Part shown: positions 1-59,569 of the stretch, piece after piece
Numbering within the stretch: position 1 is the first letter of the stretch
How the letters are laid out: each line of letters starts with the position of its first letter
Assembly (NCBI GenBank): GCA_022414725.1
Contig: CM039463.1
Coordinates: 83,802,987 to 83,866,986 of the forward strand
Direction: 5' to 3'
Length of the DNA: 64,000 nt
DNA from: Microglena sp. YARC
Taxonomy: Eukaryota > Chlorophyta > Chlorophyceae > Chlamydomonadales > Chlamydomonadaceae
Translations under genes and position numbers: made by a program
Notes under the pieces: generated by a model
What the model was told of the DNA's origin: nothing
The model's database searches: none
What the model saw: only the letters and a program-made list of their open reading frames with translations

Positions 1-28
1 AGAAAAAAGAAAAGCACATTTTTATGAA

Positions 29-107
29 TGATGCACAGTGGGTCTGGCGGACTGCTTTGGCAAGGAGCCAGTCTTCGACACTCCCTTGTGTGAGCAAGGC
101 ATCTGAG
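29..107 (+). pseudogene. Echo copy 1 of BCKDHB exon a
   Basis: Close copy of exon a that still reads [20 protein letters not shown]. It is disabled by in-frame TGA codons at 29-31 and 104-106. A usable-looking donor (GAG|GTACG) follows at 108. Confidence 0.8.
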
Positions 108-130
108 GTACGAAAAAAAAAATGTGTTAA

Positions 131-219
131 CGATGCACATTGGGTCTGGCAGACGGCTGCACAGCCACATGGCAAGGAGCGAGTTTCCAACACTCCCTTG
201 TGTGAGCAAGGCACCGCAG
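131..219 (+). pseudogene. Echo copy 2 of BCKDHB exon a
   Basis: Copy of exon a carrying about 10 extra bases after GGCTGC near 155-165, which shifts the frame. The second half still reads [16 protein letters not shown] in another frame. It keeps a canonical donor, CAG|GTAAGT at 220, unlike the intact copy with its GC donor. Confidence 0.8.
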
Positions 220-237
220 GTAAGTTTTTTTTGTTTA

Positions 238-316
238 CGATGCACAGTGGGTCTGGCAGACCGCTGTGGCAAGGAGCCAGTCTTCGACACTCCCTTGTGT
301 GAGCAAGGCATTGCAG
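238..316 (+). CDS. BCKDHB: BCKDHB exon a (intact third copy of a tandem triplet)
   Basis: Encodes [19 protein letters not shown] followed by LCEQGIA and ends in phase 1. The donor reads CAG|GCAGGG at 317, so this would be a GC-AG intron; joining to 2175 restores GIAGFGIG exactly. The 5' border is unresolved: no convincing pyrimidine-rich acceptor precedes it, and the only nearby AG (223-224) belongs to the donor of the echo copy upstream. Confidence 0.85.
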
Positions 317-2413
317 GCAGGGACAAAAAAAGAAAAATTGCCATTTATTGGGCTGCTTGGATCTACAAGAGCGGGGCGTGGGGGGTGGTGGTGGGAGGGT
401 GAGTGTGAGTGTGAGGGGGCACTCATGCAACACATCATGATCGCTGAGCAAGTAATGGGAGAATTCAAAAAAACAAAGAAAAGCAAAATATAATTTCTTG
501 GGCTGCTTGGACCTGCAAGCGCGTGGCGTGGGGTTGAAGTTGTTGTTGTTGGTGGTGGTGGTAGGGTGAATGTGGGTGTGAGGGGGCACCACCACCACCA
601 CAAACAACTAAACCACCTAAAACTAAGCCACCTAAACCCAAGTGCTGACCAGCTTCCCCCAGCCTGCTCAGCAATCATGTTGCGGTGCAGGTGTGCCCCC
701 TCACACCCACACTCACCCTACCGCCACACCACCACCATCATCAAACCCATGCCGCCCTTGTAGGTCCAAGCAGCCCAAGCCCCCGCCCCCTCCCCCCCCC
801 CCCCCGCCCCCCCCCCCCCCCCCCCCCCCCCATTACCTGCTCAGCAATCATGAATGTGGCGCATGAGTGCCCCAAAATTCCTAATAGCTGGGCAGTTAGT
901 GGGATCCTGTGTGTATGCACATACTGTGTGTGTGTGTGCATATACTGCATGTGTATCTTCACCCTACCTGCTCAGCAATCATGACATGGTGCATGAGTGC
1001 CCCCTAACACCCACACTCACCTACCGCCACCACCACCATCATCAACCCAGAGCCACAGCCCCACCCTTGCAGGTACAAGCAGCCCAAGAAATTGCCTTTT
1101 TTTCCTTTGATTTGTTTAGTACTCTCATTACCTGCTCAGGTGCTTAGCAATCATGTTCACTGCATGAGAGCCCCTCACACCACACTCACCTCCTCCATCG
1201 CCTTCCTTGGTTGGGTTGGGTTCCCAACCCACGCAAAAGTCCTCCACACCTACCCCATACACACACCTACCCCATACACACACCTACCATCTAAACCCAA
1301 AATGCACTGTACTATATCACATCCTGCTAACCAATTGCACACCTGCTCAGCAATTATGATGTGGTGCATGAGTGCGCTGAATTACTCCACTCACCCTATC
1401 GCCACCACCCCCATCATCAACCCCCCCGCCCCGCCCTTGCAGGTCCAAGCAGCCCAAGAAATTGCCTTTTTTCCTTTTTTCTTTTTTCCTTTTTCCTTTT
1501 CTTTTTTCCCTTTTTTGCCATTTTGCGAGGTCGAGCAGCCAAGAAATTGCCTTCTTTAGCTTTCTTTGATTGATTGAGTTTTCCCATTACCTGATCAGCA
1601 ATCATGATGCGGGGTATGAGTGCCCCCTCACACCCACACTCACCCTACCGCCCCCACCCCCCCCACCCCCAGCATCAACCCCCACGCCCCACCCTTGCAT
1701 GTTCAAGCAGCCCAAGAAATTGCCTTTTTTGTTTTCTTTGATCGATTGAGTTTTCCCATTACCTGCTCAGCAATCATGATGTGGGGTATGAGTGCCCCCT
1801 CACACCCACACTCACCCTACCGCCACCACCCCCATCATCAACCCCACGCCCTAGCCCTTGCAGGTCCAAGCAGCCAAGAAATGGCCTATTTTCCTTTGTT
1901 TTTTTTAGTTTCCCAGTACCTGCTCAGCAATCATGATGTGGGTCATGAGTGCCCCCTCACACCCACACTCACCCTCCCACCACCACCATCATCATCAACC
2001 CCTTGCAAATCCAAGCAGCCCAAGAAATAGCATTTTTGTTTAACAAAATATCACATGTACCACCACGAACTGGACTGCACAAGGGAAACTGTAACCAAAA
2101 GATGTTTTATCTGGCATTAATTTAGAACCACGACCCTGACCAGCTACTACTACTGAACCCTACTGGAATTGCAGGCTTTGGGATAGGGCTGGCCAGCATG
2201 GGCTACACACCGATTGCAGAGATTCAATTCGCTGTAAGTGATGATGCTGATGGTGGTGGTGATGATGGTGGCAGTGGTGGTGATAATGATGGTGGTGGTG
2301 GTGGTGATGATGGTGGTGGTGATGATGATGATGATAATGATGAAGATTTCATTTTTCTGGTGTCCTACTGGACTCCAACTGTGCCCCGGATTGACAGAGA
2401 GACATTGTACAAA

Positions 2414-2490
<77 letters not shown>

Positions 2491-5400
2491 TCATATATAT
2501 AAAAGCCTGTACTGAAATATATATTGTTTCACCATTTGCCGACTCGCACTCCAGTTCGCCCCTCTTGTCCACATGAATATATATCAAAGGGTGTACATAC
2601 AAAAACCTGAACTAAAATATATATATTGTTTTCACCATTTGCCGACTTGCACTACAGTTCGCCCCTCTTGTCCACATGAATTTATATCAAAGGATGTACA
2701 TACAAAAACCTGAACTAAAAAATATATATATTGTGGTTCGAGATTAACGTGGAACACCAATACTAGGGGTATTAAAGATCTAAAGGATTACAGGGCTTTA
2801 TAGCTAAAGCTATAAAGTCCTATAATCTAAGGGTCTTTGCGGGGATATATTAAAAGAAGTGCAAGTATCTTATTGGTGGCCCCTTTAAAAGGGCCCCACT
2901 TAAAAAAGGGGGCCATAATAATTAAGTGAGGTTTTAATAATGTATAAAAGGCTAATTCCATGTGTTTAATACACGACCTTGAGAATCTGCAACAGATTGG
3001 TTGAAGTTGACATTTATTTGATAGATCTAAGTCCATTTACTTAGTGCGCCTTTAAAGGCAAATTGCCATAAAAGGGTTCACCAAGCCCTCTTGTCCACAT
3101 GAAGACTAGCTCGTGCTCATTAATTTTAAAGAAAGAAACTAAGCTACAGCATGCATGTGTGGCAAATGCCAAACAATTTTTTTTCATTCATTTTTTTTAA
3201 TTTCTTCTTAATTTACAATTTAATCAATTTCATTTCTTAAATTCTGCACAATTTCTTTAAATTCAATCTTTTTAAAAGATAGCAACAGCCTATTGATCTA
3301 CTTACACTCCCTTGGCCCAGTCTTGTCCACATGAACGCTAGCTCGTGCTAATTAATTTTAAATAAAGAAACCAAGCTAGAGCACGCATGTGTGGATAGGG
3401 CCACCGTACTAGTTTCTTCAAATTAAATTGATTTCAAAGAAAGTAACTACCTCCTGAGCTACTTACACTCCCTGGGTCCCCTCTTATCCACATGACCACT
3501 AACTGGTGCTAATTAATTTAAAATAAAGTAACCAAGCTTTAGCCATACAATTTATTTAGAGAGAGCAGCTGCCTCCTAAGCTGCTTACACTCCCTTGTTC
3601 CCCTCTTGTCCACATGAACACTAGCTCGTGGCCATTCATTGTAAATAAAGCAGCGAAGCTAGATCACACATGAACCCTAGCCACACAGTTTCTTTAAATT
3701 AAATTAATTAATTGTTTCACAATTTCTTTAAATTAAATTAATTGTAAAGAAAACTAAAGCCTACTGAGCTACTTACGCTCCCTGGGGCCCCTCTTGTCCA
3801 CATGAACGCTAGCTTGGGCTAATTAATTTTAAATGTATAAAACAAGCTAGAGCAAGCATGTGTGGATAACGCCACACAATTTCTGTAAATCCAATTAATT
3901 TAATTTCTTAGTATCTTCACAATTTCACAATTAAAATAATTCAATTTCTTAAATTCTGCACCATTTCTTCAAATTGAATTAATTTTTGAGAAAGCAACTA
4001 CCTACTAAGCTACTTACACTCTCTTGGTACGCTCGTGTCCACATGAGCGCTAGCTCGTGGTAATTAATAAAAATAAAAAAAGCTAGAGCACACATGTGTG
4101 GCTAAAGTCACACAGTTTCTTTAAATAAAATTAATTAATTTATTCGCGATTTCACAATTAAATCAATTAACTTTCTTAAATTCTGCACAATTTATTTAAA
4201 TTAATTGAATTTAAAAGAAAGCAATAACCTACTAAGCTACTTACATTCTCTTGGTACCACCTTGTCCACATGAACACTAGGTGGTGCTAATTAATGTTTA
4301 ATAAAGCAGCTAAGCTAAAGCCACAGAATTTATTAAATTAAATTGATTTTAAAGAAAGCAACTGCCTACTAAGCTACTTACACTCCCCTTGTGCCCTCGT
4401 GTCCACATGAACACTAGCTGGTGATAATTAGTTTTAAATAGCAAATAAGCTTTAGCCATACAATTTATGTAAAGAAATCAACTACCACCTAAGCTACTTA
4501 CACTTCCTTGTTCCCCTCTTGTCCACATGAATGCTAGCTCGTGCTAATAAATTTTAAAGAAAGAAACCAAGCTAGAGCACGCATGTGAGGATAAAGCCAC
4601 ACCATTTCTTTAAATTAAATTGTTTTTTGAGAAAGCAACTACCTACCTAGCTACTTCCACTCTCTTGTACACATGAACACTACCTGATGCTACAATTAAT
4701 TTAAATAAGCAACTATCTTATAAGCTAAAGCCACGCCATTTATTTAAATTCAATTAATTTCTCAATTTGTTCTTAATTCATTCTCAATTTCTTTACTTAT
4801 CCACTTACACTCCCTTTCCCCCCTCTTGTCCACATGAACTCATTGATCGGCGTAGGACTACATCTTCCCTGCGGTGAGTTTTTTTCTTCTTCTCCATTCT
4901 TTTATTTCTTATTTATTAGTTCTTTTATTTCTTATTAGTTCTTTTATTTCTTATTTATTAGTTCTTTTATTTCTCATTAGTTCTTTATTACTTCTTTTAT
5001 TTCTTATTAGTTCTTTATTAGTTCTTTTATTTCTTATTAGTTCTTTATTAGTTCTTTTATTTCTTATTAGTTCTTTATTAGTTCTTTTATTTCTTATTAG
5101 TTCTTTATTAGTTCTTTTATTTCTTATTAGTTCTTTATTAGTTCTTTTATTTCTTATTAGTTCTTTATTAGTTCTTTTATTTCTTATTAGTTCTTTATAA
5201 GTTCTTTTATTTCTTATTAGTTCTTTATTAGTTCTTTTATTTCTTATTAGTTCTTTATTAGTTCTTTTATTTCTTATTAGTTCTTTATAAGTTCTTTTAT
5301 TTCTTATTAGATCTTTATTAGTTCTTTTATTTCTTATTAGTTCTTTATTAGTTCTTTTATTTCTTATTAGTTCTTTATTAGTTCTTTTATTTCTTATTAG

Positions 5401-6259
5401 TTCTTTATTAGTTCTTTTATTTCTTATTAGTTCTTTATTAGTTCTTTTATTTCTTATTCATTTATTTCTAATACTTCATCTTCCCTGCAGTGAATTTTCT
5501 TCTTCTTCTCCAGTCTTCTCATTTCTTATTTATTGATTTGTTATACTACATCTTGCCGGCGGAGACATTTCTTCTTCTTCTTCTAATGTCTTATTTATTT
5601 ATTTACTTGTACAGGACTTGTACTACATTTTCCCAGCGATGAGTTTTTTTATTGGAAGGATTTATTTATTTGTTTATTTATTTATTTATTTAATTATTTA
5701 TTTATTTATTTAATGAGATTTGTTTTTTTATTGGAAACATTTATTTATTTATTTAAAAGAGACACCCAAACAACTACTCCTGCACAGTTTGATCAGCTTG
5801 TGAATGAAGCTGTGGAATATTTACCAACCTGACTTGCAGCTTGGCACACCCTCAACACCCTCAACACCCTCAACACCCACCCCACCCTCAACACTCACCC
5901 CACCCACCCCACCCTCACCTCTCACAACACCCCACCACTCACAACACCCATACCACTACACCTGCACAGTTTGATCAGCTTGTGAATGAAGCTGTGAAGT
6001 ATTTGCCAACCTGACTTGCTGCTTGGCTCACCCTCACCACCCTCAACACTCACACCACCCACCCCACCCTCACCTCTCACAACACCCCCACCACTCACAA
6101 GACCCATACCACTACACCTGCACAGTTTGATCAGCTTGTGAATGAAGCTGCAAAGTACAGGTACCGCTCTGGTTCTGAATTCAACTGTGGAGGTCTGACC
6201 GTGCGAACTCCTTATGGTACGTTGGTTGCACTTTACTTGTTGGTGGTGGTGGTAATTCG

Positions 6260-6349
<90 letters not shown>

Positions 6350-8944: not shown

Positions 8945-8979
<35 letters not shown>

Positions 8980-9243
8980 CCCCCCCCCCCCACCCACACA
9001 TTTGTACCCCTTTACCCCTTACACCACCACCCCCACCCTCACCAACCACTAACCAGTCTCCCCCCCCACCCCCACCCCTAAACGGGGGCATGGCAGCATT
9101 CACTGGTGAAATAACATTGACTGGCATCGCCCCAAACAATCGTTTTAGCTTCTGATAAGCTGGTTGGACGTGACGAAAGAGGACTGATTTGCAACACAAA
9201 CATGTGTACCCCTTTACCCCCCCCCCCCCCCCCCCCCTCTCCC

Positions 9244-9302
<59 letters not shown>

Positions 9303-45300: not shown

Positions 45301-48300
45301 CTGGATGTGCCTGGACACTTTACCCCACACCTGGACTAGATTAACCAAACCTGGATGTGCCTGGACACTTTAACCCCACACCTGGACTAGATTAACCAAA
45401 CCTGGATGTGGACACTTTACCCACCTGATAGATAACCAAACTGGATGGGACCACTTTACCCCACACCTGGACTAGATTAACCAAACCTGGATGTGCCTGG
45501 ACACTTTACCCCACACCTGGACTAGATTAACCAAACCTGGATGTGCCTGGACACTTTACCCCACACCTGGACTAGATTAACCAAACCTGGATGTGCCTGG
45601 ACACTTTACCCCACACCTGGACTAGATTAACCAAACCTGGATGTGCCTGGACACTTTACCCCACACCTGGACTAGATTAACCAAACCTGGATGTGCCTGG
45701 ACACTTTACCCCACACCTGGACTAGATTAACCAAACCTGGATGTGCCTGGACACTTTACCCCACACCTGGACTAGATTAACCAAACCTGGATGTGCCTGA
45801 CACTTTAACCCACACCTGGACACTTTACCCCACACCTGGACTAGATTAACCAAACCTGGATGTGCCTGGACACTTTACCCCACACCTGGACTAGATTAAC
45901 CAAACCTGGATGTGCCTGGACACTTTACCCCACACCTGGACTAGATTAACCAAACCTGGATGTGCCTGGACACTTTACCCCACACCTGGACTAGATTAAC
46001 CAAACCTGGATGTGCCTGGACACTTTACCCCACACCTGGACTAGATTAACCAAACCTGGATGTGCCTGGACACTTTACCCCACACCTGGACTAGATTAAC
46101 CAAACCTGGATGTGCCTGGACACTTTACCCCACACCTGGACTAGATTAACCAAACCTGGATGTGCCTGGACACTTTAACCCACACCTGGACTAGATTAAC
46201 CAAACCTGGATGTGCCTGGACACTTTACCCCACACCTGGACTAGATTAACCAAACCTGGATGTGCCTGGACACTTTAACCCCACACCTGGACTAGATTTA
46301 ACCAAACCCTGGATGTGCCTGGACACTTTACCCACACCTGGACTAGAGCTTTTAACCAAACCTGGATGTGCCTGGACACTTTACCCCACACCTGGACTAG
46401 ATTACCACCTGGATGTGCCTGGACACTTTACCCCACACCTGGACTAGATTAACCAAACCTGGATGTGCCTGGACACTTTACCCCACACCTGGACTAGACT
46501 TTAACTGGACAAACCTGGATGTGCCTGGACACTTTACCCCACACCTGGACTAGATTAACCAAACCTGATGTGCCTGGACACTTTAACCCACACCTGGACT
46601 AGATTAACCAAACCTGGATGTGCCTGGACACTTTACCCCCACACCTGGACTAGATTAACCAAACCTGGATGTGCCTGGACACTTTACCCCACACCTGGAC
46701 TAGATTAACCAAACCTGGATGTGCCTGGACACTTTAACCCACACCTGGACTAGATTAACCAAACCTGGATGTGCCTGGACACTTTACCCCACACCTGGAC
46801 TAGATTAACCAAACCTGGATGTGCCTGGACACTTTACCCCACACCTGGACTAGATTAACCAAACCTGGATGTGCCTGGACACTTTACCCCACACCTGGAC
46901 TAGATTAACCAAACCTGGATGTGCCTGGACACTTTACCCCACACCTGGACTAGATTAACCAAACCTGGATGTGCCTGGACACTTTACCCCACACCTGGAC
47001 TAGATTAACCAAACCTGGATGTGCCTGGACACTTTACCCACACCTGGACTAGATTAACCAAACCTGGATGTGCCTGGACACTTTACCCCACACCTGGACT
47101 AGATTAACCAAACCTGGATGTGCCTGGACACTTTACCCCACACCTGGACTAGATTAACCAAACCTGGATGTGCCTGGACACTTTACCCACACCTGGACTA
47201 GATTAACCAAACCTGGATGTGCCTGGACACTTTACCCCACACCTGGACTAGATTAACCAAACCTGGATGTGCCTGGACACTTTACCCCACACCTGGACTA
47301 GATTAACCAAACCTGGATGTGCCTGGGACACTTTACCCCACACCTGGACTAGATTAACCAAACCTGGATGTGCCTGGACACTTTACCCCACACCTGGACT
47401 AGATTAACCAAACCTGGATGTGCCTGGACACTTTTACCCCACACCTGGACTAGATTAACCAAACCTGGATGTGCCTGGACACTTTACCCCACACCTGGAC
47501 TAGATTAACCAAACCTGGATGTGCCTGGACACTTTACCCACACCTGGACTAGATTAACCAAACCTGGATGTGCCTGGACACTTTACCCCACACCTGGACT
47601 AGATTAACCAAACCTGGATGTGCCTGGACACTTTAACCCACACCTGGACTAGATTAACCAAACCTGGATGTGCCTGGACACTTTACCCCACACCTGGACT
47701 AGATTAACCAAACCTGGATGTGCCTGGACACTTTACCCCACACCTGGACTAGATTAACCAAACCTGGATGTGCCTGGACACTTTACCCCACACCTGGACT
47801 AGATTAACCAAACCTGGATGTGCCTGGACACTTTACCCCACACCTGGACTAGATTAACCAAACCTGGATGTGCCTGGACACTTTACCCCACACCTGGACT
47901 AGATTAACCAAACCTGGATGTGCCTGGACACTTTACCCCACACCTGGACTAGATTAACCAAACCTGGATGTGCCTGGACACTTTACCCACACCTGGACTA
48001 GATTAACCAAACCTGGATGTGCCTGGACACTTTACCCCACACCTGGACTAGATTAACCAAACCTGGATGTGCCTGGACACTTTCCTGATTTAACCAAACT
48101 GGACACTTTACCCCACACCTGGACTAGATTAACCAAACCTGGATGTGCCTGGACACTTTACCCACACCTGGACTAGATTAACCAAACCTGGATGTGCCTG
48201 GACACTTTACCCCACACCTGGACTAGATTAACCAAACCTGGATGTGCCTGGACACTTTACCCCACACCTGGACTAGATTAACCAAACCTGGATGTGCCTG

Positions 48301-51300
48301 GACACTTTACCCCACACCTGGACTAGATTAACCAAACCTGGATGTGCCTGGACACTTTACCCCACACCTGGACTAGATTAACCAAACTGGATGTGCCTGG
48401 ACACTTTACCCACACCTGGACTAGATTAACCAAACCTGGATGTGCCTGGACACTTTACCCCACACCTGGACTAGATTAACCAAACCTGGATGTGCCTGGA
48501 CACTTTACCCCACACCTGGACTAGATTAACCAAACCTGGATGTGCCTGGACACTTTACCCCACACCTGGACTAGATTAACCAAACCTGGATGTGCCTGGA
48601 CACTTTAACCCACACCTGGACTAGATTAACCAAACCTGGATGTGCCTGGACACTTTACCCACACCTGGACTAGATTAACCAAACCTGGATGTGCCTGGAC
48701 ACTTTACCCCACACCTGGACTAGATTAACCAAACCTGGATGTGCCTGGACACTTTACCCCACACCTGGACTAGATTAACCAAACCTGGATGTGCCTGGAC
48801 ACTTTACCCCCACACCTGGACTAGATTAACCAAACCTGGATGTGCCTGGACACTTTACCCCACACCTGGACTAGATTACCACCTGGATGTGCCTGGACAC
48901 TTTACCCCACACCTGGACTAGATTAACCAAACCTGGATGTGCCTGGACACTTTAACCCACACCTGGACTAGATTAACCAAACCTGGATGTGCCTGGACAC
49001 TTTACCCACTGGACCTGGACTAGATTAACCAAACCTGGATGTGCCTGGACACTTTACCCCACACCTGGACTAGATTAACCAAACCTGGATGTGCCTGGAC
49101 ACTTTACCCACACCTGGACTAGATTAACCAAACCTGGATGTGCCTGGACACTTTACCCACACCTGGACTAGATTAACCAAACCTGGATGTGCCTGGACAC
49201 TTTACCCCACACCTGGACTAGATTAACCAAACCTGGATGTGCCTGGACACTTTACCCCACACCTGGACTAGATTAACCAAACCTGGATGTGCCTGGACAC
49301 TTTACCCCACACCTGGACTAGATTAACCAAACCTGGATGTGCCTGGACACTTTACCCCACACCTGGACTAGATTAACCAAACCTGGATGTGCCTGGACAC
49401 TTTACCCCACACCTGGACTAGATTAACCAAACCTGGATGTGCCTGGACACTTTACCCACACCTGGACTAGATTAACCAAACCTGGATGTGCCTGGACACT
49501 TTACCCCACACCTGGACTAGATTAACCAAACCTGGATGTGCCTGGACACTTTTACCCCACACCTGGACTAGATTAACCAAACCTGGATGTGCCTGGACAC
49601 TTTACCCCACACCTGGACTAGATTAACCAAACTGGATGTGCCTGGACACTTTACCCCACACCTGGACTAGATTAACCAAACCTGGATGTGCCTGGACACT
49701 TTACCCACACCTGGACTAGATTAACCAAACCTGGATGTGCCTGGACACTTTACCCACACCTGGACTAGATTAACCAAACCTGGATGTGCCTGGACACTTT
49801 ACCCCACACCTGGACTAGATTAACCAAACCTGGATGTGCCTGGACACTTTAACCCCACACCTGGACTAGATTAACCAAACCTGGATGTGCCTGGACACTT
49901 TACCCCACACCTGGACTAGATTAACCAAACCTGGATGTGCCTGGACACTTTACCCCACACCTGGACTAGATTAACCAAACCTGGATGTGCCTGGACACTT
50001 TACCCCACACCTGGACTAGATTAACCAAACCTGGATGTGCCTGGACACTTTACCCACACCTGGACTAGATTAACCAAACCTGGATGTGCCTGGACACTTT
50101 ACCCCACACCTGGACTAGATTAACCAAACCTGGATGTGCCTGGACACTTTACCCACACCTGGACTAGATTAACCAAACCTGGATGTGCCTGGACACTTTA
50201 CCCCACACCTGGACTAGATTAACCAAACCTGGATGTGCCTGGACACTTTACCCCACACCTGGACTAGATTAACCAAACCTGGATGTGCCTGGACACTTTA
50301 ACCCACACCTGGACTAGATTAACCAAACCTGGATGTGCCTGGACACTTTAACCCACACCTGGACTAGATTAACCAAACCTGGATGTGCCTGGACACTTTA
50401 CCCACACCTGGACTAGATTAACCAAACCTGGATGTGCCTGGACACTTTACCCCACACCTGGACTAGATTAACCAAACCTGGATGTGCCTGGACACTTTAA
50501 CCCACACCTGGACTAGATTAACCAAACCTGGATGTGCCTGGACACTTTACCCCACACCTGGACTAGATTTACCAAACCTGGATGTGCCTGGACACTTTAC
50601 CCCACACCTGGACTAGATTAACCAAACCTGGATGTGCCTGGACACTTCACCCCACACCTGGACCAGATTAATTTCCTGAATAACTAGCTCCTCCCGGCAA
50701 TATCCTGTGTTAACACGTTTACCTTGTACCATTCGCTGAAACAGGATGGCTGCTTCCTCAGTGCATGCACACAAAGTGTACTGCTTTGTAGTGCTTCCTC
50801 AATGTATGAACACACTGTGTAGTGCTTCCTCAATGTATGAGCACAAAGTGTTGCGCTGTCCCTGTTTCAATTGGTTTGTTTCTTTTCTTTTTTCCTTTTT
50901 TCTGCCTCTTCTTTGCTGTTTCCATTATATTTTTACGGGGATGATGGACGATAGCGCGAAGGAGTTCAACAGCAGGGCTTGTTTTCAAATCTGAAAGTGG
51001 TTTTTTTCTAGCTGTATGGTTTTAGGCCTCCTCCAGGGACAGCGTTACAGTGTTTTTTATAGCTTGTATAGCCTTTCATAGCTTTTTAAGGCCATTTAGG
51101 GCACACACAAAAATGTACTTTTTAATAGCGACAGTATCGCTAAAACGGGGTCAAAATTAGCGATCGCTATACATGGCTGAAAAAAAGCCCTGTTCAACGA
51201 AGTGGAGGAGCCAACTTGTTACTTTCCCTATTTTAATGTGTGTGTTTGTGGGGTGGTGGGGTGTGTGTGAGGGGGGGGGGGGGGGGGGGGGATGGATGAT

Positions 51301-53141
51301 GGCGCAAAGGAGTTCAACGAAGTGTAAGAGCCAACATGTTAGCATGAGGTGCATGTGACAACTATGCGGGTAGGCTCTGTGTGGATACAAAGTGTTGACA
51401 AAGGAGCTGACTTGGAGAGTTATTAAGATAAGTTAGTAAATACATATCATATAGAATTAGTCCTGATAATAATACTTGCTTGCTGCAATCTTGCTTGCTT
51501 GCTGCAATGATGTCTTTATTCTTCTGATGATTTGTTGGAAGAACCCTCCCGGATGTTGTGAAGCGGGCTTGATGGTTGGTTGGTTGGTTGGTTGGTTGGT
51601 TGGAAGAACCCTCCCGGATGTTGTGAAGCGGGCTTGTCTTGGGCCAATAATGGCCTGTTGATGACAATGTAATGTAATGTAATGTAATGTAATGTAATGT
51701 AATGTAAGTTATACCAATTCCAGTTATGGTGCCACCAAGGAGGATGTTCCAAATGGAGAGCACTACGTGCCTCTTGCCACTCCCCTCCCATTCCAACACA
51801 ACGCAACCTAACCCACCCCTCCCACCTCACCCACCACCCATGCCCCCTTACCATTACCAATGCCAGGTGTCGCACCGCAATGGAGGATGTCTCAAGTGGA
51901 GAGTACTATGTGTCTATTGCCACTCCCAACCGAACTAAAATCCAACTAAAACCCAACTAAAATCCAACTAAAATCCAACTAAAATCCAACTAAAATCCAA
52001 CCCGACCCAGCCCACCTCGCCCACCGACCATGCCCCCTACGGTTACCGATTCTAGGTATCGCACCGCAATGGAGGATGTTCCAGTGGGAGAGTACTATGT
52101 GCCTCTTGGAAAAGCTAGAACTGTCTTGGAAGGATCTGACGTGACACTTGTTGGTTGGGGGCAGCAGGTGAGTTGGTTGGGATGACACTTGTTGGTTAGG
52201 GGTAGCAGGTGAGTTGGTTGGGATGACACTTGTTGGTTGGGGGCTCCACGTGAGTTGGTTAGGGTGACACTTGTTGGTTGGGGGCAGCAGGTGAGTTGGT
52301 TGGGATGACACTTGTTGGTTGGGGGCGGCAGGTGAGTTGGTTGGAGTGACACTTGTTGGTTGGGGGCAGCAGGTGAGTTGGTTGGGATGGCAATCGTTGG
52401 TTGGGGGCAGCAGGTGAGTTGGGTGGATGGGTTAGGGTGCTCGATGCTGAGGTTGTTGGATGGATGGGTTAGGGTGCTAGCTGGGTCGATGGACTAGGAT
52501 GCTCGATGAAGAGGTAGCTGGATGGATGGGTTAGGGTGCTAGAAGTGTCGATGGGCTAGGGTGCTAGATGAAAAGGTTGTCGGATGGATGGGTAAGGGGG
52601 GGTGGGGGGGGGCTCATATGCTGTACCTTCAGTCCTTCCTTACAGTCCAGGGGGTGGCTAAGTAGGTTAAAGAGACATGCCCAACCATGATATCAGGAGG
52701 GGATAAAAAGAAAAAAACTGATGAAATGAACCTCAAGCAACTGTCTTACCGAGCGAGGCCCTGAGTTTTGCTACAGTTACAATTTAATTGTGCGATTATC
52801 AACTTGCTTTTGATACCACTGTGTGCTTTAACTGCAAGCATCAGTGCAAGCGAGCGGACTGGCCCCCTCAACCTCACGCCTCGTCATAAGGTGTTACATT
52901 CATTCATTCATTCATTCACTCATTCATTCATTCATTCACTCATTCATTCATTCATTCATTATCGATTTATTTATCTATCTATTTATTTATTTGTTTGTTT
53001 ATTTGTTTATTTATTTATTTATTTACTTTTTGATTTATTGATTTATTGATTTATCGATTTATTACCACCGTGTGCTGTTACTTCAGGTTCTGGTTTCAGA
53101 GCAAGTGCGTGAACAGGATAGCATCAGTTGTGAAGTCCCAT

Positions 53142-53204
<63 letters not shown>

Positions 53205-55441
53205 CTTTTTGATTTATTGATTTATTGATTTATTACCACCGTGTGCTGTTACTTCAGGTTCTGGTTTCAGAGCAAGTGCGTGAACAGGATAGCATCAGTT
53301 GTAAAGTCCCATTTACTTATTCCTTTCTTTATTTCTTTATTTATTTCTTTATTTATGTATTTATGTTTACATCCATTCATTCATTTATTTCATTTATGTA
53401 TTTATTACCACTGCGTGCTTTTGTCTTGTCTTTTACATGTTCAAGTCTACTTGACACCACGAGGGTGTATGAGCCTCTGTGCTTAAACAAAAATAAAAAG
53501 CACCCACAAAGCAAAAACTGTGTGCTGAAACCAGGCTGAAACTTAAGGTTCTGGTTGGTCGGCCCCCCTATGGGGGACAGACCTATGGGATACTTCCGCG
53601 AAATTGTGTAGTTGGTGCTGTTTCTTCAAATTCTCCAAAAATTCCTAAGAAAACCGGTCACATAAGCCGGTTAACTGAGTTCTCTGAAATCTAAGCAATT
53701 CGTGCTCGATTCCATCGTCGCAGGGGATGGTTCTTCTTTTTCACCTTGCTTGCGACTTAGTAACTTCCCTGACCTCGATGAACAGTTGTTATGCCGGTAG
53801 ACGCAAGGTTTGCAGCGTTAAACTTGCAAAGCAGTTCGCATGGTTGCAAGTCCAATACGCAACCTCACGTCACAACTTCTCTGCGAATTGTTTGCCCACC
53901 CGTGTAGCTTGTACCCGCTGTCAAAAGCATGCGTTGAATTCGCAAAGCAAGTTGAATAGTCTCAACACCAGTACATGCAAAGCCTCGCACGTCCAATAGT
54001 CGCAAAGCAGATTGAATAGTCTGAAAGCAAGTTCACTGTCCGCAAAGCAACTCCAATGGTCGAAGAGCAACTTCGCTTCTCAACTTCCTTGGGAGTTGCT
54101 GTACCTGCGGAATGGTGCACTTCGGTAACCAACCTGCTGTCGAAAGCTTGCCCCGGAGAGCACTTATTCGCGTTCGAATCTCAGGGTTGCGGACTGTAGA
54201 CGGGTTTTCATTTTTCGTGTCCCTCCTGTCATGTGGACTCAATCTAGGGACCTGGAGCATATCCAACACAACAGCTGACTAACAAGCTCTCATCGTAGAC
54301 ACACGGAAACCATGTTCAACATCCATCAGAAACAGCCCAAGAAAGAAGGCATCCGCTTGAACTGCATTCACACACCTGCTACAATAAATGACATATACAT
54401 GACGGCTCTCTCACAGTTCTTTAAATTCTACAAGTACAAGCATACCACTGGATGCCAAGCCCAGACATGAAACATAACATGACAATCTACGTTAAATATT
54501 CAAAACGATCAAGTTGTTGGCAATCGCAATTAGCAAATGTATCACACTGCACGTCGTTTCACCTTGGCATACCCACATGAACAACTTTGTTATATTTATC
54601 AACTTTCAACAATGATACAAATGACAAATGATAACAATGATACAAATGACAAATGAACTACAATCCCAGAAGCCATCGTGTACTATACCCCACCCCCGGG
54701 GCCGACCTCCAGGGGACCCGCCAGGGCACCCTACTATTTTAGAGCAAGCTGCCCAACAAGTGCATGAGCAGGATGGAATCAATTGTGAAGTCCCATCCAT
54801 TTATTTAGTTGGTTAGTTGGTTAGTTAGTTAGTTAGTTATCTCATATTTATTTATCTATTTATTTATGTATTCATTCATTCATTTTTAATTCATTTGTGT
54901 ATGTATTTATTTATTACCACTGTGTGCTGTAAGTTCAGGTTCTGGTTTTAGAGCAAGCTACCCAACAAGTGCGTGGTCAAGATGGCATCACCGCATCAGT
55001 TGTGAAATCACATCCATTTATTTATATATGTATTCATTCATTATTCCATTCATTTATTTATTTTATTTATGTATTTATTTCCACTGCGTGCTGTAACTTC
55101 AGGTTCTAGTTTTAGAGCAAGCTGCACAGCAAGTGCGCGAACAAGATGGCATCAGCTGTGAAGTCATCGACCTCCGCACGCTCATCCCATGGGACGTCAG
55201 TGCAGTGGTGGATTCTGTCAACAAAACAGGCCGCCTGATTGTTAGCCATGAGGCCCCTGTAACCTCTGGTTTCGGGGCTGAGGTGGTCGCAACCATCTCC
55301 AGGAACTGCTTTCTTAGGCTCGAGGCACCACCCACACGAGTGTGTGGGCTCGACACTCCGTTTCCCCTAGTGTTTGAGCCAATATACCTCCCCTCCGTGC
55401 CGAAACTGATCCATGCCATTCGTGAGGTAGTCAACTTCTAA
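238..55441 (+). CDS. BCKDHB: Branched-chain 2-oxoacid dehydrogenase E1 beta subunit, 3' part, spliced (8 exons)
   Basis: Join of 238-316, 2175-2233, 4856-4873, 6126-6216, 9615-9688, 11293-11387, 52056-52167 and 55103-55441. All junction phases agree, giving 867 nt (288 residues plus TAA). The family product pairs with E1-alpha as a thiamine-diphosphate-dependent alpha2beta2 decarboxylase in the mitochondrial matrix, acting on the 2-oxoacids of Leu, Ile and Val. Visible landmarks in order are [118 protein letters not shown] and [14 protein letters not shown]. The first six exons belong to the pyrimidine-binding transketolase-like domain and the last two to the C-terminal domain. The family is usually about 330-390 residues with a transit peptide, so the N-terminal part is missing at the window edge. 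The [13 protein letters not shown] block favours BCKDH over pyruvate dehydrogenase E1-beta. Introns range from 1.25 to 40.7 kb. Confidence 0.95.
345..590 (-). repeat. Intronic ~160-bp repeat, inverted units
   Basis: Between 345 and 590 lie about one and a half units that are the reverse complement of the repeat filling 690-2045: GGGCTGCTTGG, then a GGTGGTGGT tract, GTGAGGGGGCACTCATG and GATCGCTGAGCAAGTAATGG. The region 590-690 is the turning point between the two orientations. Confidence 0.8.
690..2045 (+). repeat. Intronic ~130-250-bp tandem repeat, about 8 units
   Basis: Each unit contains ACCTGCTCAGCAATCATG (near 660, 836, 966, 1132, 1341, 1590, 1761 and 1919), then GAGTGCCCCCTCACACCC, a CCACCACC/CATCATCAACCC tract, CCCTTGCAGGTCCAAGCAGC and CCAAGAAATTGCC followed by T-rich DNA. 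A C-run of about 40 bases lies near 790-830 and TG/CA-rich DNA near 905-950. Open frames through these units are low-complexity Pro/His strings with no family resemblance. It lies in the intron between exons a and b. Confidence 0.85.
2046..2174 (+). other. Intron 3' end before exon b
   Basis: Largely unique intron DNA ending in TACTGGAATTGCAG, the acceptor for exon b. I see no gene in it. Confidence 0.6.
2175..2233 (+). CDS. BCKDHB: BCKDHB exon b
   Basis: Acceptor TTGCAG|GC and donor GCT|GTAAGT. It contributes [19 protein letters not shown] after completing the split glycine from exon a. It is the only exon here for which I find no echo copies. Confidence 0.95.
2234..2760 (+). repeat. Simple repeats and a ~103-bp duplicated unit in the b-c intron
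   Basis: GAT/GGT trinucleotide repeats at 2238-2342 are followed by an AT dinucleotide tract at about 2416-2500. Then come two to three copies of a unit with ATTGTTTCACCATTTGCCGA, GTTCGCCCCTCTTGTCC and ACATACAAAAACCTGAACT (2518-2730). Non-coding. Confidence 0.8.
2761..3080. other. Intron DNA with hairpins
   Basis: A symmetric palindrome surrounds TTTATAGCTAAAGCTATAAA at about 2796-2816, and GGCCCCTTTAAAAGGGCCCC near 2877-2896 is a second. No gene seen. Confidence 0.6.
3080..4845 (+). repeat. AT-rich intronic repeat, ~120-240-bp units, about 11 copies
   Basis: Recurrent core CTTGTCCACATGAA (near 2565, 2668, 3089, 3323, 3605, 3795, 4262, 4518 and 4827, with variants between), followed by GCTAGCTCGTGCTAATTAAT, AGCTAGAGCACGCATGTGTG and an A/T-rich spacer ending GCTACTTACACTCCC. 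Spacing is irregular, so units differ by internal deletions. The final unit runs directly into the acceptor of the 18-nt exon. Confidence 0.85.
4856..4873 (+). CDS. BCKDHB: BCKDHB exon c, 18-nt microexon
   Basis: Acceptor GGCGTAG|GAC and donor GCG|GTGAGT. The 18 bases encode DYIFPA in phase 0 on both sides, exactly the residues needed between EIQFA (exon b) and FDQLVNEA (exon d). Three decayed copies follow downstream. Confidence 0.92.
4880..5460 (+). repeat. 30-bp minisatellite, about 18 copies
   Basis: Near-perfect tandem repeat of TTCTTTATTAGTTCTTTTAT plus TTCTTATTAG, nearly pure T-rich on the sense strand. It sits between the microexon and its decayed copies. Confidence 0.95.
5473..5638 (+). 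pseudogene. Three decayed copies of the 18-nt microexon
   Basis: At 5473-5489 ACTTCATCTTCCCTGCA lacks an acceptor AG. At 5544-5561 TACTACATCTTGCCGGCG lacks both splice sites. At 5615-5638 ACAG|GACTTG..TTCCCAGCG keeps an acceptor, but its donor reads ATGAGT instead of GTGAGT. Each is followed by the same T-rich context as the intact exon. Confidence 0.8.
5639..5787 (+). repeat. TTTA-rich simple repeat and acceptor region
   Basis: Mostly (TTTA)n, ending in ACTCCTGCACAG, the acceptor of the first echo of exon d. Confidence 0.7.
5788..6015 (+). pseudogene. Two echo copies of BCKDHB exon d 5' part
   Basis: TTTGATCAGCTTGTGAATGA occurs at 5788 and 5970 behind the same CCTGCACAG acceptor as the intact exon at 6126. 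Both diverge after GAAGCTGTG(G/A)A and run into a CAACCTGACTTG.. spacer with ACCCTCAACACCC repeats. Confidence 0.9.
6126..6216 (+). CDS. BCKDHB: BCKDHB exon d
   Basis: Acceptor CTGCACAG|TTT and donor TATG|GTACGT. Encodes [20 protein letters not shown] then [10 protein letters not shown], ending in phase 1. This is the third and only complete copy in a tandem triplet. Confidence 0.95.
6238..6356 (+). repeat. (GTT)n microsatellite
   Basis: More than 30 GTT triplets directly after the exon d donor region. Its translation is a poly-Val or poly-Asn artefact. Confidence 0.95.
6365..6602 (+). repeat. Dispersed intronic repeat, first copies
   Basis: Shares TTTTGGTATTAGGCCAAACA, GACTAAAGAAGATTGACATG, AACGATCACTGGTAAAATAA and TATACCGGTTGTAGT with copies at 7640-8060. 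No gene. Confidence 0.75.
6603..6800 (+). repeat. 30-bp tandem repeat, 6 copies
   Basis: Unit ATGTGGTGCCAAACAGTTGA plus CTTAAGATTG, almost identical between copies. It appears to be a local amplification of the neighbouring GGCCAAACAATTG..GATTGACATGG repeat. Confidence 0.95.
6801..7045. other. Intron DNA without recognised feature
   Basis: AT-rich; includes an imperfect inverted pair around AATATTATTGTGAC and AATAATATTAG (about 6926-6967). Nothing coding seen. Confidence 0.5.
7046..7430 (+). mobile_element. tRNA-headed SINE-like element
   Basis: The head resembles a tRNA gene: an A-box-like TGGCTCAATGG at 7058-7068 and a B-box GGTTCGAATCC at 7097-7107. It is followed by a body with GTCAACCACCATGGTAGC. 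A second body copy (7311-7430) has CGCTGTCAACCGCCATGG and ends GGCTCCCTTAATATCACGCC. The complete arrangement appears inverted at 13523-13725. I do not call it a functional tRNA because the acceptor stem does not pair convincingly. Such elements are copied by LINE machinery from polymerase III transcripts. Confidence 0.75.
7514..7625 (+). mobile_element. SINE-like body fragment
   Basis: Repeats the body CGCTGTCAACCGCCATGGTA, GTAAAGTAGCAGCCAGTTCC and GGCTCCCTTAATACCACGCC, without the tRNA-like head. Confidence 0.7.
7635..8060 (+). repeat. Dispersed intronic repeat, three copies
   Basis: Tandem copies of the GGCCAAAACAATTG / GACTAAAG..GATTGACATGG / AATCACTGGTAAAATAACAA / TATACCGGTTGTGGTCGC unit (about 110-160 bp), also present at 6365-6602. 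Confidence 0.8.
8100..8510 (+). repeat. Duplicated ~240-bp intronic unit
   Basis: Two copies of a block with TTTGGTAGCATTTACTGGTA, AAATAACATTGACTGGC, CCCCAAACAATCG, TTGAATAATTAGGCATATG and CTATCTCGACAAGTGCCTGG. Parts recur at 8700-8810 and 9090-9190. Confidence 0.75.
8513..8625 (-). repeat. Dispersed 115-bp element, inverted copy
   Basis: The reverse complement of 8513-8625 matches 55480-55595 almost base for base, for example CCAGGGGTAGGCCAAATAGG and CACTGATGAACTGAACCCC. A more diverged copy is at 52640-52752. Confidence 0.85.
8626..8691. repeat. (ACAT)n microsatellite
   Basis: About 16 copies of CATA/ACAT. The apparent peptides YIHTYIHT are artefacts. Confidence 0.95.
8806..9370. repeat. 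C-run and CA-repeat block
   Basis: Tandem copies of CACATTTGTACCCCTTTACC plus CCTTACAGCATCC alternate with long poly-C runs (8945-8990, 9220-9237) and a (CA)n tract at 9245-9300. Part of the 8100-8510 repeat recurs at 9090-9190. Non-coding. Confidence 0.9.
9383..9529 (+). pseudogene. Two echo copies of BCKDHB exon e 5' part
   Basis: Copies at 9383-9417 and 9495-9529 reproduce AATGCAG|GTGCTGTGGG plus the following 25 bases ([10 protein letters not shown] and [10 protein letters not shown]), then run into CACCAACCACCAACC spacers. The intact exon follows at 9615 behind the same CAATGCAG acceptor. Confidence 0.92.
9615..9688 (+). CDS. BCKDHB: BCKDHB exon e
   Basis: Acceptor AATGCAG|GT and donor CTCAAG|GTACGC. 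Encodes [20 protein letters not shown] then PGLK, containing the conserved HSQSPEAFF segment of E1-beta. Phase 1 in, phase 0 out. Confidence 0.95.
9705..9940. repeat. 26-bp tandem repeat
   Basis: About eight copies of CATGATGAGATATATGATCC plus TCATAT, rich in self-complementary ATATCATGAT. It lies between exon e and the downstream copies of that exon's 3' end. Confidence 0.9.
9946..10110 (+). pseudogene. Three echo copies of BCKDHB exon e 3' end plus donor
   Basis: CATGTGCCTGGACTCAA recurs at 9951-9967 (donor lost, ATGTAGG), 10025-10041 (donor AAG|GTATGC) and, with one change, at about 10093-10109 (donor AAG|GTGAGC). Two of the three keep strong donor sequences. Confidence 0.88.
10111..10440. 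other. Intron DNA, partial dispersed repeats
   Basis: A partial copy of the 75-bp dispersed element lies near 10160-10195 (TTGCACTGGGGCCAACCACC), then GC-rich hairpin-prone DNA around GGTCGCAAGGGGGTGCGACC (about 10329-10348). No exon recognised. Confidence 0.55.
10441..11290 (+). repeat. ~199-bp tandem array carrying BCKDHB exon f echoes
   Basis: Four units spaced 199, 199 and 192 bp, plus 200 bp to the intact exon. Each contains a partial exon f, GGGGTTAGGTTTTAAGG, CCATCCTGCAGAGTTGTAGG, TTACAAGATAACCCATCC and a run of CCCTAAA-type telomere-like heptamers. The run directly precedes the CTTGCAG or CCTGCAG acceptor. Confidence 0.92.
10503..11150 (+). pseudogene. Four echo copies of BCKDHB exon f 5' part
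   Basis: Copies begin at 10503, 10702, 10901 and 11093, each as GCAG|GTGGTGATCCCCAGC. Copies 1-3 share a deletion (CCAAAGTCTGCTGCTATC) that breaks the frame. Copy 4 keeps CCAAAGGTCTGCTGCTCTC but also diverges after ATCATGG. None contains the VVFFEPK half. Confidence 0.92.
11293..11387 (+). CDS. BCKDHB: BCKDHB exon f
   Basis: Acceptor CCTGCAG|GTG and donor ATGAT|GTGAGA. Encodes [20 protein letters not shown] then [11 protein letters not shown]; the split Met codon AT|G is completed by exon g. Fifth and only complete copy of its series. Its donor opens the 40.7-kb intron. Confidence 0.95.
11430..11511 (+). pseudogene. Two echo copies of BCKDHB exon f 3' end
   Basis: At 11430-11449 ACTTCGAGCCCAAGATGAT is followed by an intact GTGAGA donor. 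At about 11493-11511 ACTTTGAGCCCAAGATGCT is followed by GCGAGC. The spacer is ACAATTCAAATTCAAATTC. Confidence 0.88.
11520..11850 (+). repeat. Two copies of the 75-bp dispersed element plus GGTGG tract
   Basis: GACGAGGCGTGAGGTTGAGG-like elements at about 11641-11712 and 11768-11838 both end TTGAACTGGGGCCAACCACC. A G-rich tract (11585-11605) precedes them. Confidence 0.8.
11860..12250 (+). repeat. ~186-bp tandem duplication
   Basis: Two copies of a block: CAGTGCCCAGTGTGGGTG, GGGGCGGCAGAGAGGGCAGG, TTGTACCATACTGACACGGC and GGGTAACATATAATTCAAC. Non-coding. Confidence 0.85.
12251..12620. other. Intron DNA without recognised feature
   Basis: Includes an open frame of about 100 codons on each strand (12267-12609) resembling no family I know, and a short (ATGT)n tract at 12335-12353. 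Nothing supports a gene. Confidence 0.5.
12621..12662 (+). repeat. Left copy of inverted ~41-bp motif flanking the array region
   Basis: CAGGGCTTTTTATTTCCGCT followed by ATATATAGCGATCGCTAG. The reverse complement of 51153-51192 matches it with a few changes. The TAGCGATCGCTA core is itself palindromic. Confidence 0.65.
12663..13000. repeat. 57-bp tandem repeat, 6 copies
   Basis: Unit ACCAAAAAAGGAAGGACAGG, GAAAGGGGGCTGCCTGGAAG, CTGCTACCCGTAGC; the last copies vary slightly. Since 57 is divisible by three, frames stay open on both strands. The CTGCCTAGAAGCTGCT segment recurs near 60945. Confidence 0.93.
13001..13522. other. Intron DNA with a ~60-bp direct repeat
   Basis: A GAT-rich tract (13011-13060) is followed by two copies of CACAAACCAGC(A/G)ACATGTATGG and GCTTCCTCAAG (near 13246 and 13486). 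No exon recognised. Confidence 0.55.
13523..13725 (-). mobile_element. SINE-like element, complete inverted copy
   Basis: On the minus strand it starts with CCCAGTTTGGCGAATGG, with A-box-like TGGTTCAATGG (13699-13709) and B-box GGTTTGAATCC (13656-13666). The body is CGCTGTCAACCGCCATGG and GGTAAAGTAGCAGCCTGTTC, ending GCTCCCTTAATACCATGCCC and a short tail. About 200 bp; the best-preserved copy in the window. Confidence 0.78.
13760..13855 (+). repeat. 75-bp dispersed element with AATA tract
   Basis: (AATA)n followed by GTACGCCTTGTTACGAGGCG, TGAGGTTGAGGGGGCCAGCC and CACTGGGGCCGACCA. Same family as 11641, 11768, 52846 (inverted) and 58236. Confidence 0.8.
13985..14078 (+). repeat. GC-rich dispersed element truncated by the satellite
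   Basis: GGTCAGCGCTTTTTAGTCC, AAAAAGCGCAAAAACTGCG and CCCACAGGGGGTTGAAAAA, breaking off at GGCTCAAAAA exactly where the satellite starts. Other copies lie at about 61995-62180 (inverted) and 62950-63130. Confidence 0.8.
14081..50670 (+). repeat. 36.6-kb satellite array of a 50-bp unit (~730 copies)
   Basis: The unit, read in pieces, is CACACCTGGACTAGATTAAC, CAAACCTGGATGTGCCTGGA, CACTTTACCC. It contains CCTGGA three times, suggesting origin from three 16-17-bp subunits. Lengths of 49, 50 and 51 bp arise almost wholly from the C-run (TTTACCCAC, TTTACCCCAC, TTTAACCCCAC). The array is head-to-tail in one orientation. Short open frames (about 60 codons) on both strands are artefacts of a period not divisible by three; each passes a stop within three units. 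It lies wholly inside one BCKDHB intron. Confidence 0.97.
18405..37900 (+). repeat. Degraded middle section of the satellite
   Basis: The same 50-bp unit, but with indels in nearly every copy: GG reduced to G (CCTGACTAG, CCTGATGTG), lost bases in CCCC/AAA runs, inserted single bases and occasional larger losses. Around 30280-30840 extra bases dominate instead of losses. The flanking parts (14081-18405 and 37900-50670) are near-perfect, with some irregular patches near 39150, 40750-40860, 41560-41700 and 45410-45450. Confidence 0.9.
50671..51152. other. Intron DNA right of the array
   Basis: Short tandem copies of GTGCTTCCTCAATGTATGA (50760-50850), then T/C-rich DNA and AGCGACAGTATCGCT (near 51126), a small palindrome. 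No exon recognised. Confidence 0.55.
51153..51192 (-). repeat. Right copy of inverted ~41-bp motif flanking the array region
   Basis: AAAATTAGCGATCGCTATAC then ATGGCTGAAAAAAAGCCCTG. Its reverse complement aligns with 12621-12662. Confidence 0.65.
51193..51720. repeat. Mixed short repeats
   Basis: Two copies of a GGAGTTCAACGAAGTG block (51195, 51308), an 18-G run near 51274, two copies of GAACCCTCCCGGATGTTGTG separated by (TTGG)n (51540-51635), and an (ATGTA)n tract at 51666-51708. The last may be the tail of a second, unidentified LINE 3' end. Confidence 0.75.
51725..51919 (+). pseudogene. Two echo copies of BCKDHB exon g 5' part
   Basis: Copy 1 (51725-51776) is diverged: CAAGGAGGATGTTCCAAATG, GAGAGCACTACGTGCCTCTT. 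Copy 2 (51867-51919) keeps its acceptor (TGCCAG|GTGTCGC) and an open frame ([18 protein letters not shown]). Both then run into CCACTCCCA.. and CCAACTAAAAT spacers. The intact exon is at 52056. Confidence 0.9.
52056..52167 (+). CDS. BCKDHB: BCKDHB exon g
   Basis: Acceptor GATTCTAG|GTATCGC and donor CAGCAG|GTGAGT. Completes the split Met and encodes [20 protein letters not shown] then [17 protein letters not shown], the start of the C-terminal transketolase-like domain. Third copy of its series. Confidence 0.95.
52131..52425 (+). repeat. 41-bp tandem repeat of exon g 3' end and donor, 7 donors
   Basis: The last bases of exon g (GACACTTGTTGGTTGGGGGC, AGCAG|GTGAGTTGG) are repeated so that GTGAGT starts at 52168, 52209, 52250, 52291, 52332, 52373 and 52414, a period of exactly 41 bp. 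Only the third copy alters the CAG before the donor (CCAC|GTGAG). Use of any later donor would read through TGA soon after 52168. Confidence 0.95.
52426..52635. repeat. ~50-bp repeat with GGATGGATGGGTTAGGG
   Basis: Four or five irregular copies of TGGATGGATGGGTTAGGGTG plus CTAG.TG.(C)GATG, ending in a G-rich tract near 52600. Non-coding. Confidence 0.8.
52640..52752 (+). repeat. Dispersed 115-bp element, diverged copy
   Basis: CCAGGGGGTGGCTAAGTAGG, AGAGACATGCCCAACCATG and ACTGATGAAATGAACC align with 55480-55595. Confidence 0.75.
52846..53086. repeat. Inverted 75-bp element followed by ATTC/ATTT tracts
   Basis: GACTGGCCCCCTCAACCTCA (inverted 75-bp element, 52858-52890), then (ATTC)n and (TTTA)n up to the ACTTCAG acceptor of the first exon h echo. 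Confidence 0.8.
53087..53310 (+). pseudogene. Echo copies 1 and 2 of BCKDHB exon h 5' part
   Basis: Copies at 53087-53139 and 53258-53310, 171 bp apart and nearly identical. Each starts ACTTCAG|GTTCTGGTTTC and reads [17 protein letters not shown] (K for E in copy 2). Relative to the intact exon 12 bases are deleted (LEQAAQQ reduced to SEQ). Each ends at AAGTCCC, followed by (ATTT)n or a T-rich tract. Confidence 0.92.
53311..53445. repeat. ATTT/ATTC simple repeats
   Basis: T-rich (TTTA)n with ATTCATTC, following the second exon h echo. Non-coding. Confidence 0.8.
53440..53528 (-). mobile_element. Isolated LINE 3' end, inverted
   Basis: The reverse complement reads TTTGCTTTGTGGGTGC, CTCATACACCCTCGTGGTGT and CAAGTAGACTTGAACATGT, matching the LINE terminus at 60229-60303. 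Only about 90 bp remains. Confidence 0.8.
53529..54736. other. Intron DNA, no exon recognised
   Basis: Contains a cluster of short direct repeats (CGCAAAGCA.. at 53935-54060) and a duplicated ATGATACAAATGACAAATGA (54612, 54636). Open frames of up to about 90 codons show no known domain. Confidence 0.5.
54737..55010 (+). pseudogene. Echo copies 3 and 4 of BCKDHB exon h 5' part
   Basis: Copy 3 (54737-54794) reads [18 protein letters not shown] but lacks a convincing acceptor (ACTATTTTAGAGC). Copy 4 (54939-55010) starts GTTCAG|GTTCTGGTTTTAG and carries extra bases (ATCACCGCATCAG) that shift the frame. Both run into CCATCCATTTATTTA tracts. Confidence 0.9.
55103..55441 (+). CDS. BCKDHB: BCKDHB exon h (terminal exon)
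   Basis: Acceptor ACTTCAG|GTT; TAA at 55439-55441. Encodes 112 residues: [20 protein letters not shown], then [51 protein letters not shown] and a C-terminus ending REVVNF. This is the core of the E1-beta C-terminal domain. Fifth copy of its series and by far the longest unbroken coding stretch of the gene here. Confidence 0.96.
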
Positions 55442-58911: not shown

Positions 58912-58959
58912 CTGCAGGTGTGTTTTAATATTCAGGATGTGGGAAATAATTATTAGATG

Positions 58960-59492: not shown

Positions 59493-59569
59493 ACACATTG
59501 TAGTGCATGCAGCCTTTAGGAGCTCTGTTTAAAGCCTATAAATATCCATGAAATAATATTTCTTTAGCT

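Follow-up and report, generated by a model that had tools for sequence, protein, structure and literature searches.

Partial exon copies along the introns of a green-algal E1-beta gene, probably left by short tandem duplications that are indifferent to splice sites

Tandem repeats lying across exon-intron boundaries have been described as 'mirage' minisatellites in the amphioxus Adh3 gene and in the globin genes BflGb6 and BflGb9 (PMC3087553). In the sections of that paper drawn on here, repeat units are 150-160 bp long for the globins, as against 10-72 bp for Adh3, the boundary concerned may be the 5' or the 3' one, many but not all copies carry the AG or GT, and the authentic exon adjoins the array. 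Haplotypes vary in these arrays, and RT-PCR suggests normal splicing; few genes are reported, the authors suggesting a possible generality among cephalochordates. In the potato RdRp gene, a tandem duplication crossing an intron-exon boundary gave rise to a new intron (PMC4974935), and intron gain is further treated in the work of Gao and Lynch (2009) and Hellsten (2011), cited here through that paper and a review (PMC3443670). Among green algae, the density of tandem repeats is highest in the introns of C. reinhardtii and V. carteri, repeats are commoner near intron ends in C. reinhardtii and Volvox (PMC3887541), and Haematococcus lacustris contains tandemly organised repeats (PMC7617258).

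The locus analysed here resembles the mirages, as far as the excerpted account of them goes (PMC3087553), in that the repeated unit spans the exon-intron boundary (at seven of eight exons), the 5' or the 3' boundary is duplicated (both at exons e, f and g), and many though not all signals are kept (14/15 acceptors, 11/14 donors). Unlike the mirages, the copies belong to a green alga, where they occur at 10 of the 15 borders of one gene and at 29 of 55 exon cores of the chaperonin (CCT) family, and they are embedded in introns that are duplicated throughout. The potato case likewise involves a within-gene tandem duplication crossing an intron-exon boundary (PMC4974935, in the part compared), but here existing introns lengthen and most junctions lack the AG|GT of the AGGT model. 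The high repeat density of introns in C. reinhardtii and V. carteri agrees with introns exceeding their flanks here (10/11 loci); whereas repeats are commoner near intron ends there (PMC3887541), duplication here, measured differently, does not increase towards exon borders. The portions of PMC3887541 and PMC7617258 used here make no mention of exon-border copies. Among the matches listed from the open-licence PMC literature, no titles or abstract beginnings name border-copy arrays in green algae, and no description was found of border copies at nearly every exon of one gene. The preliminary description, made from the letters alone, knew of no account of such a pattern; this holds, within that literature, for copies at nearly every exon of a gene but not for the kind of structure, given the mirages (PMC3087553) and the potato gene (PMC4974935). 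What is new is the lineage, a green alga, and the density of border-spanning copies; since mirages and repeat-rich algal introns were already known, the finding is a new, dense occurrence of a known kind.

The window, that is, the whole 64,000-nucleotide stretch analysed, lies on contig 2 (bases 83,802,987-83,866,986) in a genome of 568 Mb. Judging from the predicted product, the sequence up to base 55,440 holds most of a gene for branched-chain 2-oxo-acid dehydrogenase E1 beta (BCKDHB) of a Chlamydomonadales-like green alga. The joined 284-aa product contains both the Transket_pyr and the Transketolase_C domain and is most similar to E1 beta, and its last exon aligns with E1-beta chains of known structure (e.g. 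1dtw_B, E = 6e-40). Among the best 120 of 7,999 protein matches, the nearest are an MMETSP transcript product (80%), a JGI protein (76%) and proteins of Volvox and Tetrabaena (77%), and the named best hits come from Volvox, Tetrabaena and Chlamydomonas. Eight exons, a to h, were placed through conserved peptides, reading frame and splice sites (Table 1); seven were also matched by tblastn with the homologue P0001, microexon c being too short. Exon h has one full match in the single assembly. An N-terminal exon lies ~4.2 kb upstream of the window, and a 2,500-N assembly gap, which ends at the base just before the window, adjoins the exon a array; about 12 residues of the protein preceding exon a were not found. 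Rfam (gathering thresholds) and ARAGORN gave no matches over the window.

Table 1. Exons, their partial copies (echoes) and duplication arrays in the window
Feature	Coordinates	Strand	Basis or remark
Exon a, 3 tandem copies, period about 102-105 bp	19..331	+	left edge = assembly gap
Exon a, open copy, GC donor	248-316	+	peptide, frame, splice sites and tblastn
Intron a-b duplication array, ~170-bp unit	323..2041	+	blastn: no exon piece
Exon b	2175..2233	+	tblastn, peptides; no echo found (blastn)
Duplication array between exons b and c	3085..4839	+	blastn: no exon piece
Microexon c	4856..4873	+	peptide DYIFPA, frame, splice sites
Exon c echoes downstream (3; donors GT, GA and AT)	5473..5653	+	blastn
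Exon d echoes upstream (2; ~182-bp unit; AG acceptor preserved in both)	5764..6001	+	blastn
Exon d	6126..6216	+	tblastn, peptides
2 upstream echoes of exon e, acceptors intact	9335..9535	+	blastn
Exon e	9615..9688	+	tblastn, peptides
Exon e echoes downstream (3; GT donor preserved)	9945..10125	+	blastn
4 upstream echoes of exon f, 199-bp unit	10461..11150	+	copies 1-3: identical deletions
Exon f	11293..11387	+	tblastn, peptides
Exon f echoes downstream (2; 62-bp unit; GT and GC donors)	11428..11516	+	blastn
Array of 50-bp unit, 36.6 kb, inside intron f-g	14077..50671	+	near-private to intron f-g
Exon g echoes upstream (2; AG acceptor preserved)	51712..51919	+	blastn
Exon g	52056..52167	+	tblastn, peptides
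Real g donor (52168), then 6 echoes, 41-bp unit, all GTGAGT	52168..52426	+	
4 upstream echoes of exon h, starts 53033, 53209, 54737, 54877	53033..54990	+	blastn
Last exon h with stop codon	55103..55440	+	tblastn, peptides

Tandem copies of an exon edge or of a whole exon, here called echoes, accompany exons a, c, d, e, f, g and h, on both sides at e, f and g, whereas blastn finds none for exon b. The claim that almost every exon has such broken copies is thereby borne out (7/8 in the window, blastn), as are the individual counts from blastn and GTGAGT sites: two for a, three for c, two for d, two upstream and three downstream of e, four and two around f, two and six around g, and four for h. 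At exon g, blastn gives four downstream rows, but seven GTGAGT sites, the real one included, follow each other at 41-bp steps; exon d has in addition one weak downstream copy of 18 bp at 6373 (blastn E 0.03). Copies of exon a are counted inside the window only, the adjoining gap obscuring both the size of the array and the copy in use; echo 1 contains an in-frame TGA and echo 2 about 10 extra bases. Upstream echoes had been said always to carry the acceptor. Mostly they do (14/15 AG), but the h echo at 54737 begins at exon base 8, without an acceptor, and echo 2 of exon a has AT instead of AG, both a echoes being copies of the whole exon. The other three h echoes have an intact acceptor.

The echoes lie far above chance, since dinucleotide-shuffled sequence yields a local duplication coverage of 0 compared with 0.647 for window positions 1-14000. 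That acceptors accompany upstream and donors downstream copies, previously offered as an informative sign, follows from the geometry of any tandem duplication across a border and says 'tandem duplication' only: if the duplicated segment begins in the intron and ends in the exon, the complete exon is necessarily preceded by a copy made of acceptor and 5' exon part, and if it begins in the exon and ends in the following intron, the complete exon is followed by a copy made of 3' exon part and donor. Echoes on a given side end at identical or neighbouring exon bases (f upstream, base 48 in 3/4; g upstream, base 53 in 2/2; h, base 63 in 3/4), with deletions common to the distal copies of f (1-3) and of h (1 and 2). 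Because of these common end bases and deletions the ~30 copies are not independent, and we infer that the series, tandem arrays of re-amplified and decayed copies, are minisatellites grown from roughly 10-11 founding duplications rather than products of 30 independent events. Local duplicate pairs lie a median of 294 bp apart and are 70-94% identical (5th-95th percentile, 383 pairs), a spread suggesting that duplication has been ongoing over a long time.

Local direct duplication, defined as copies of at least 30 bp within 3 kb at E up to 1e-3 and with the 36-kb satellite excluded, makes up 0.58 of intron sequence, 0.45 of exon sequence and 0.20 of what follows the gene. Under eight settings these shares stay at 0.54-0.61, 0.45 and 0.19-0.24, respectively, and Tandem Repeats Finder alone gives 0.43 for introns versus 0.18 after the gene. 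Splice borders are duplicated at about the background rate: 10 of 15, compared with 0.552 of random intron positions (p = 0.27), a count nominally above background, 15 borders having little power. The arrays at 323-2041 and 3085-4839 are duplicated intron sequence without any exon piece (blastn); part of the former (325-603) matches the remainder in inverted orientation.

The PF00118 chaperonin family, the only gene family compared besides BCKDHB, has 64 matches in the genome, and loci holding 55 of them were analysed, nine being left out; a second family, PF00133, has 29 matches. Echoes of at least 20 bp occur at 29 of the 55 CCT exon cores, compared with a fraction of 0.5645 among 2,000 size-matched random intervals drawn from these loci, Pfam cores being only approximate exon edges, and duplication covers 0.23 of CCT exon bases compared with 0.35 of random bases. 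Exon-core echoes are present at 10 of 13 CCT loci, so that they are not confined to a single locus; of the three without any, C2c, C4 and C2d, the first two have almost no duplication. The distance profile, computed from 54 cores at 13 loci with the AT-rich locus L047 left out, is 0.32 at the edge of the cores and falls to 0.13 in depth; outside, successive bins over 0-500 bp read 0.43, 0.47, 0.45, 0.48, 0.43 and 0.48, followed by 0.61 at 500-800 bp and 0.48 beyond. With bins flat (0.43-0.48) up to 500 bp, coverage does not rise towards exons. The view that duplications are aimed at splice borders finds no support in either the 10/15 against a 55% background (p = 0.27) or the flat profile at 13 other loci. 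Of the proposal that introns grow by tandem duplication of segments straddling borders, what survives is repeated local growth in which some duplications straddle a border, not growth directed at borders.

Direct copies far outnumber inverted ones, which make up 0-4.3% of each of the 13 CCT loci. Introns exceed flanks in local duplication at 10 of 11 CCT loci (Wilcoxon p = 0.001), the loci being those with enough flank (two single-core loci of the 13 left out; C2c near 0 for both); flanks may hold other exons, so the flank value is not yet one for intergenic DNA. Four random 5-kb stretches have local duplication values of 0.00, 0.24, 0.03 and 0.52, and the 10-kb stretches before the window 0.24 (L051, inverted 0.15) and 0.08 (L050, a quarter N). 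Two chaperonin loci stand apart: L047 has 33% GC, and L003 (G000:C6:13962293-13963762) encodes its chaperonin in a single 544-aa open frame; each is perhaps organelle-type, bacterial or foreign.

The echoes decay in the manner of neutral sequence. In the window, they differ from their exons at 19/350, 21/357 and 47/357 of codon positions 1, 2 and 3 (5.4%, 5.9% and 13.2%), and the intronic part of the same alignments differs at 139/1208 positions (11.5%). For CCT the corresponding counts are 156/1586, 134/1586 and 259/1588 (9.8%, 8.4% and 16.3%), with 1114/8168 (13.6%) in the far intronic part; they derive from 41 stop-free cores, 20 of them with pairs (65 pairs), leaving out 12 cores with stops, one duplicate core and the L047 core, and the pairs share history. 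A neutral echo beside a constrained exon would be predicted to differ at positions 1 and 2 about half as often as at position 3 and in the intron. The ratios are 0.43 (window) and 0.56 (CCT) to position 3, and 0.49 and 0.67 to the intron, the last being above the simple expectation of 0.5. The codon-position counts thus fit dead echoes beside constrained exons. Within the alignments, 14/15 AG and 11/14 GT sites of echoes are intact (25/29 together), which by our own estimate is about what drift at such divergence would leave.

Very probably, then, the echoes are non-functional leftovers of the short tandem duplications that crowd these introns and strike exon edges at much the same rate as the rest of the intron. 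Short direct duplications, for which replication slippage or unequal exchange could be the source, would strike along a housekeeping gene regardless of splice sites, and those deep inside an exon would mostly be purged by selection. A duplication crossing an acceptor would place a half exon (acceptor and 5' part) upstream, and one crossing a donor would place a half exon (3' part and donor) downstream; in both cases the real exon would stay whole and the duplication be tolerated. Such half exons are presumably harmless because each bears only an acceptor or a donor, and exon definition, which needs both nearby, would let them escape splicing. They would then drift neutrally and might be re-amplified within a minisatellite. 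The 15% inverted copies of the L051 flanking stretch and the three CCT loci lacking exon-core echoes count against this reading, and since repeats are commoner near intron ends in C. reinhardtii and Volvox, according to the portion of PMC3887541 drawn on, a weak border preference may exist.

The AGGT tandem-duplication model of intron gain requires that the spliced mRNA read AG|GT where two exons join. The seven junctions from a|b to g|h read AG|GC, CT|GA, CG|TT, TG|GT, AG|GT, AT|GT and AG|GT, that is, AG|GT at two of seven (e|f and g|h). Exons e to h had been held to begin AG|GT as this model predicts; they do start with GT after an intron AG, but all seven introns end in AG, so this means only that the exons start with GT, and the 2/7 junctions do not bear out the model. 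Compared with flanking exon ends over 15 nt, the introns from a-b to g-h have 9, 1, 3, 4, 4, 5 and 6 matches at their 3' ends (null mean 4.7, maximum 9) and 5, 3, 5, 6, 3, 2 and 5 at their 5' ends (null mean 4.0, maximum 6); none of the seven exceeds the null maximum, and the best candidate is a-b. This intron (316 and 2175) has a GC donor, and GC donors are uncommon; the sequence is GGCATTGCAG|GC at the end of exon a and GGAATTGCAG|GC at the intron's end. The end repeat is possibly a trace of intron birth by duplication. It is a lead and no proof, because GT follows the exon end in a echoes 1 and 2 and the array borders the gap.

That duplication is directed to splice borders, as a route of intron gain under the AGGT model, is accordingly improbable. 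Border copies do occur at most exons, and the ends of intron a-b with its GC donor are what an AG|GC duplication would give, its 9/15 matching bases equalling the highest of 42 mismatched comparisons; against this, enrichment at borders is absent from both the window and the CCT loci, and AG|GT junctions and intron-end similarity, a hint at a-b apart, are those just given. Moreover, echoes include intronic flanks, so introns must predate the echo duplications. Nor do the copies appear to be maintained for a use of their own. That 25/29 of their splice sites are intact speaks for selection on them as splicing regulators, decoy splice sites or alternative exons, but at such divergence this is expected without selection, on the estimate above; codon positions 1 and 2 change at about a one-sided neutral rate, some copies carry a stop, deletions or truncations, and the codon-position pattern is that of dead copies, so that function is very improbable. 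Least probable of all, to the point of being extremely unlikely, is an assembly artefact: the gap directly upstream and the poorly matching centre of the 50-bp array do betray trouble with repeats here, but identity in the echo alignments is 75-97%, whereas near-identical copies would be expected had the assembly duplicated the sequence, and exon-core echoes recur at 10/13 other loci.

If the echoes are by-products of this kind, tandem duplication is apparently a main source of intron growth in this genome, and the age of the copies can be estimated from their divergence. A wider reading, which we hold only tentatively and consider rather unlikely, is that tandem duplication acts preferentially inside transcribed introns, more than in intergenic DNA, perhaps coupled to transcription, and supplies about half of intron sequence in ordinary genes; mirage arrays would then be a normal state of genes, with the spliceosome routinely choosing among near-identical copies of splice sites. 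Such copies could serve as natural tests of spliceosome choice. For gene prediction they are a warning: partial exon copies with good splice sites act as decoys here.

The 50-bp array of intron f-g is almost private to that intron, since 301 of the 304 exact genome matches to its 30-base piece fall within the window. In its centre (about 18000-38000), 18-42% of 12-mers per 2 kb fit the consensus, compared with 75-95% on either side (the last bin, extending past the array, left aside), and the centre looks as if it had been assembled from uncorrected long reads. Inverted repeats are shared between distant parts of the window (8509-8630 with 55463-55586; 7308-7624 with 13519-13632) and are possibly remains of mobile elements. 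Beyond the gene, a long open frame on the minus strand (58312-59535) has His/Gln runs and a Cys/His-rich tail, which by eye we take to resemble a MYND-type zinc finger; it has no Pfam match at E 0.001. Farther on, an 84-bp unit recurs about four times over 61263-61596; the reading frame stays open and the copies are 92-97% identical.
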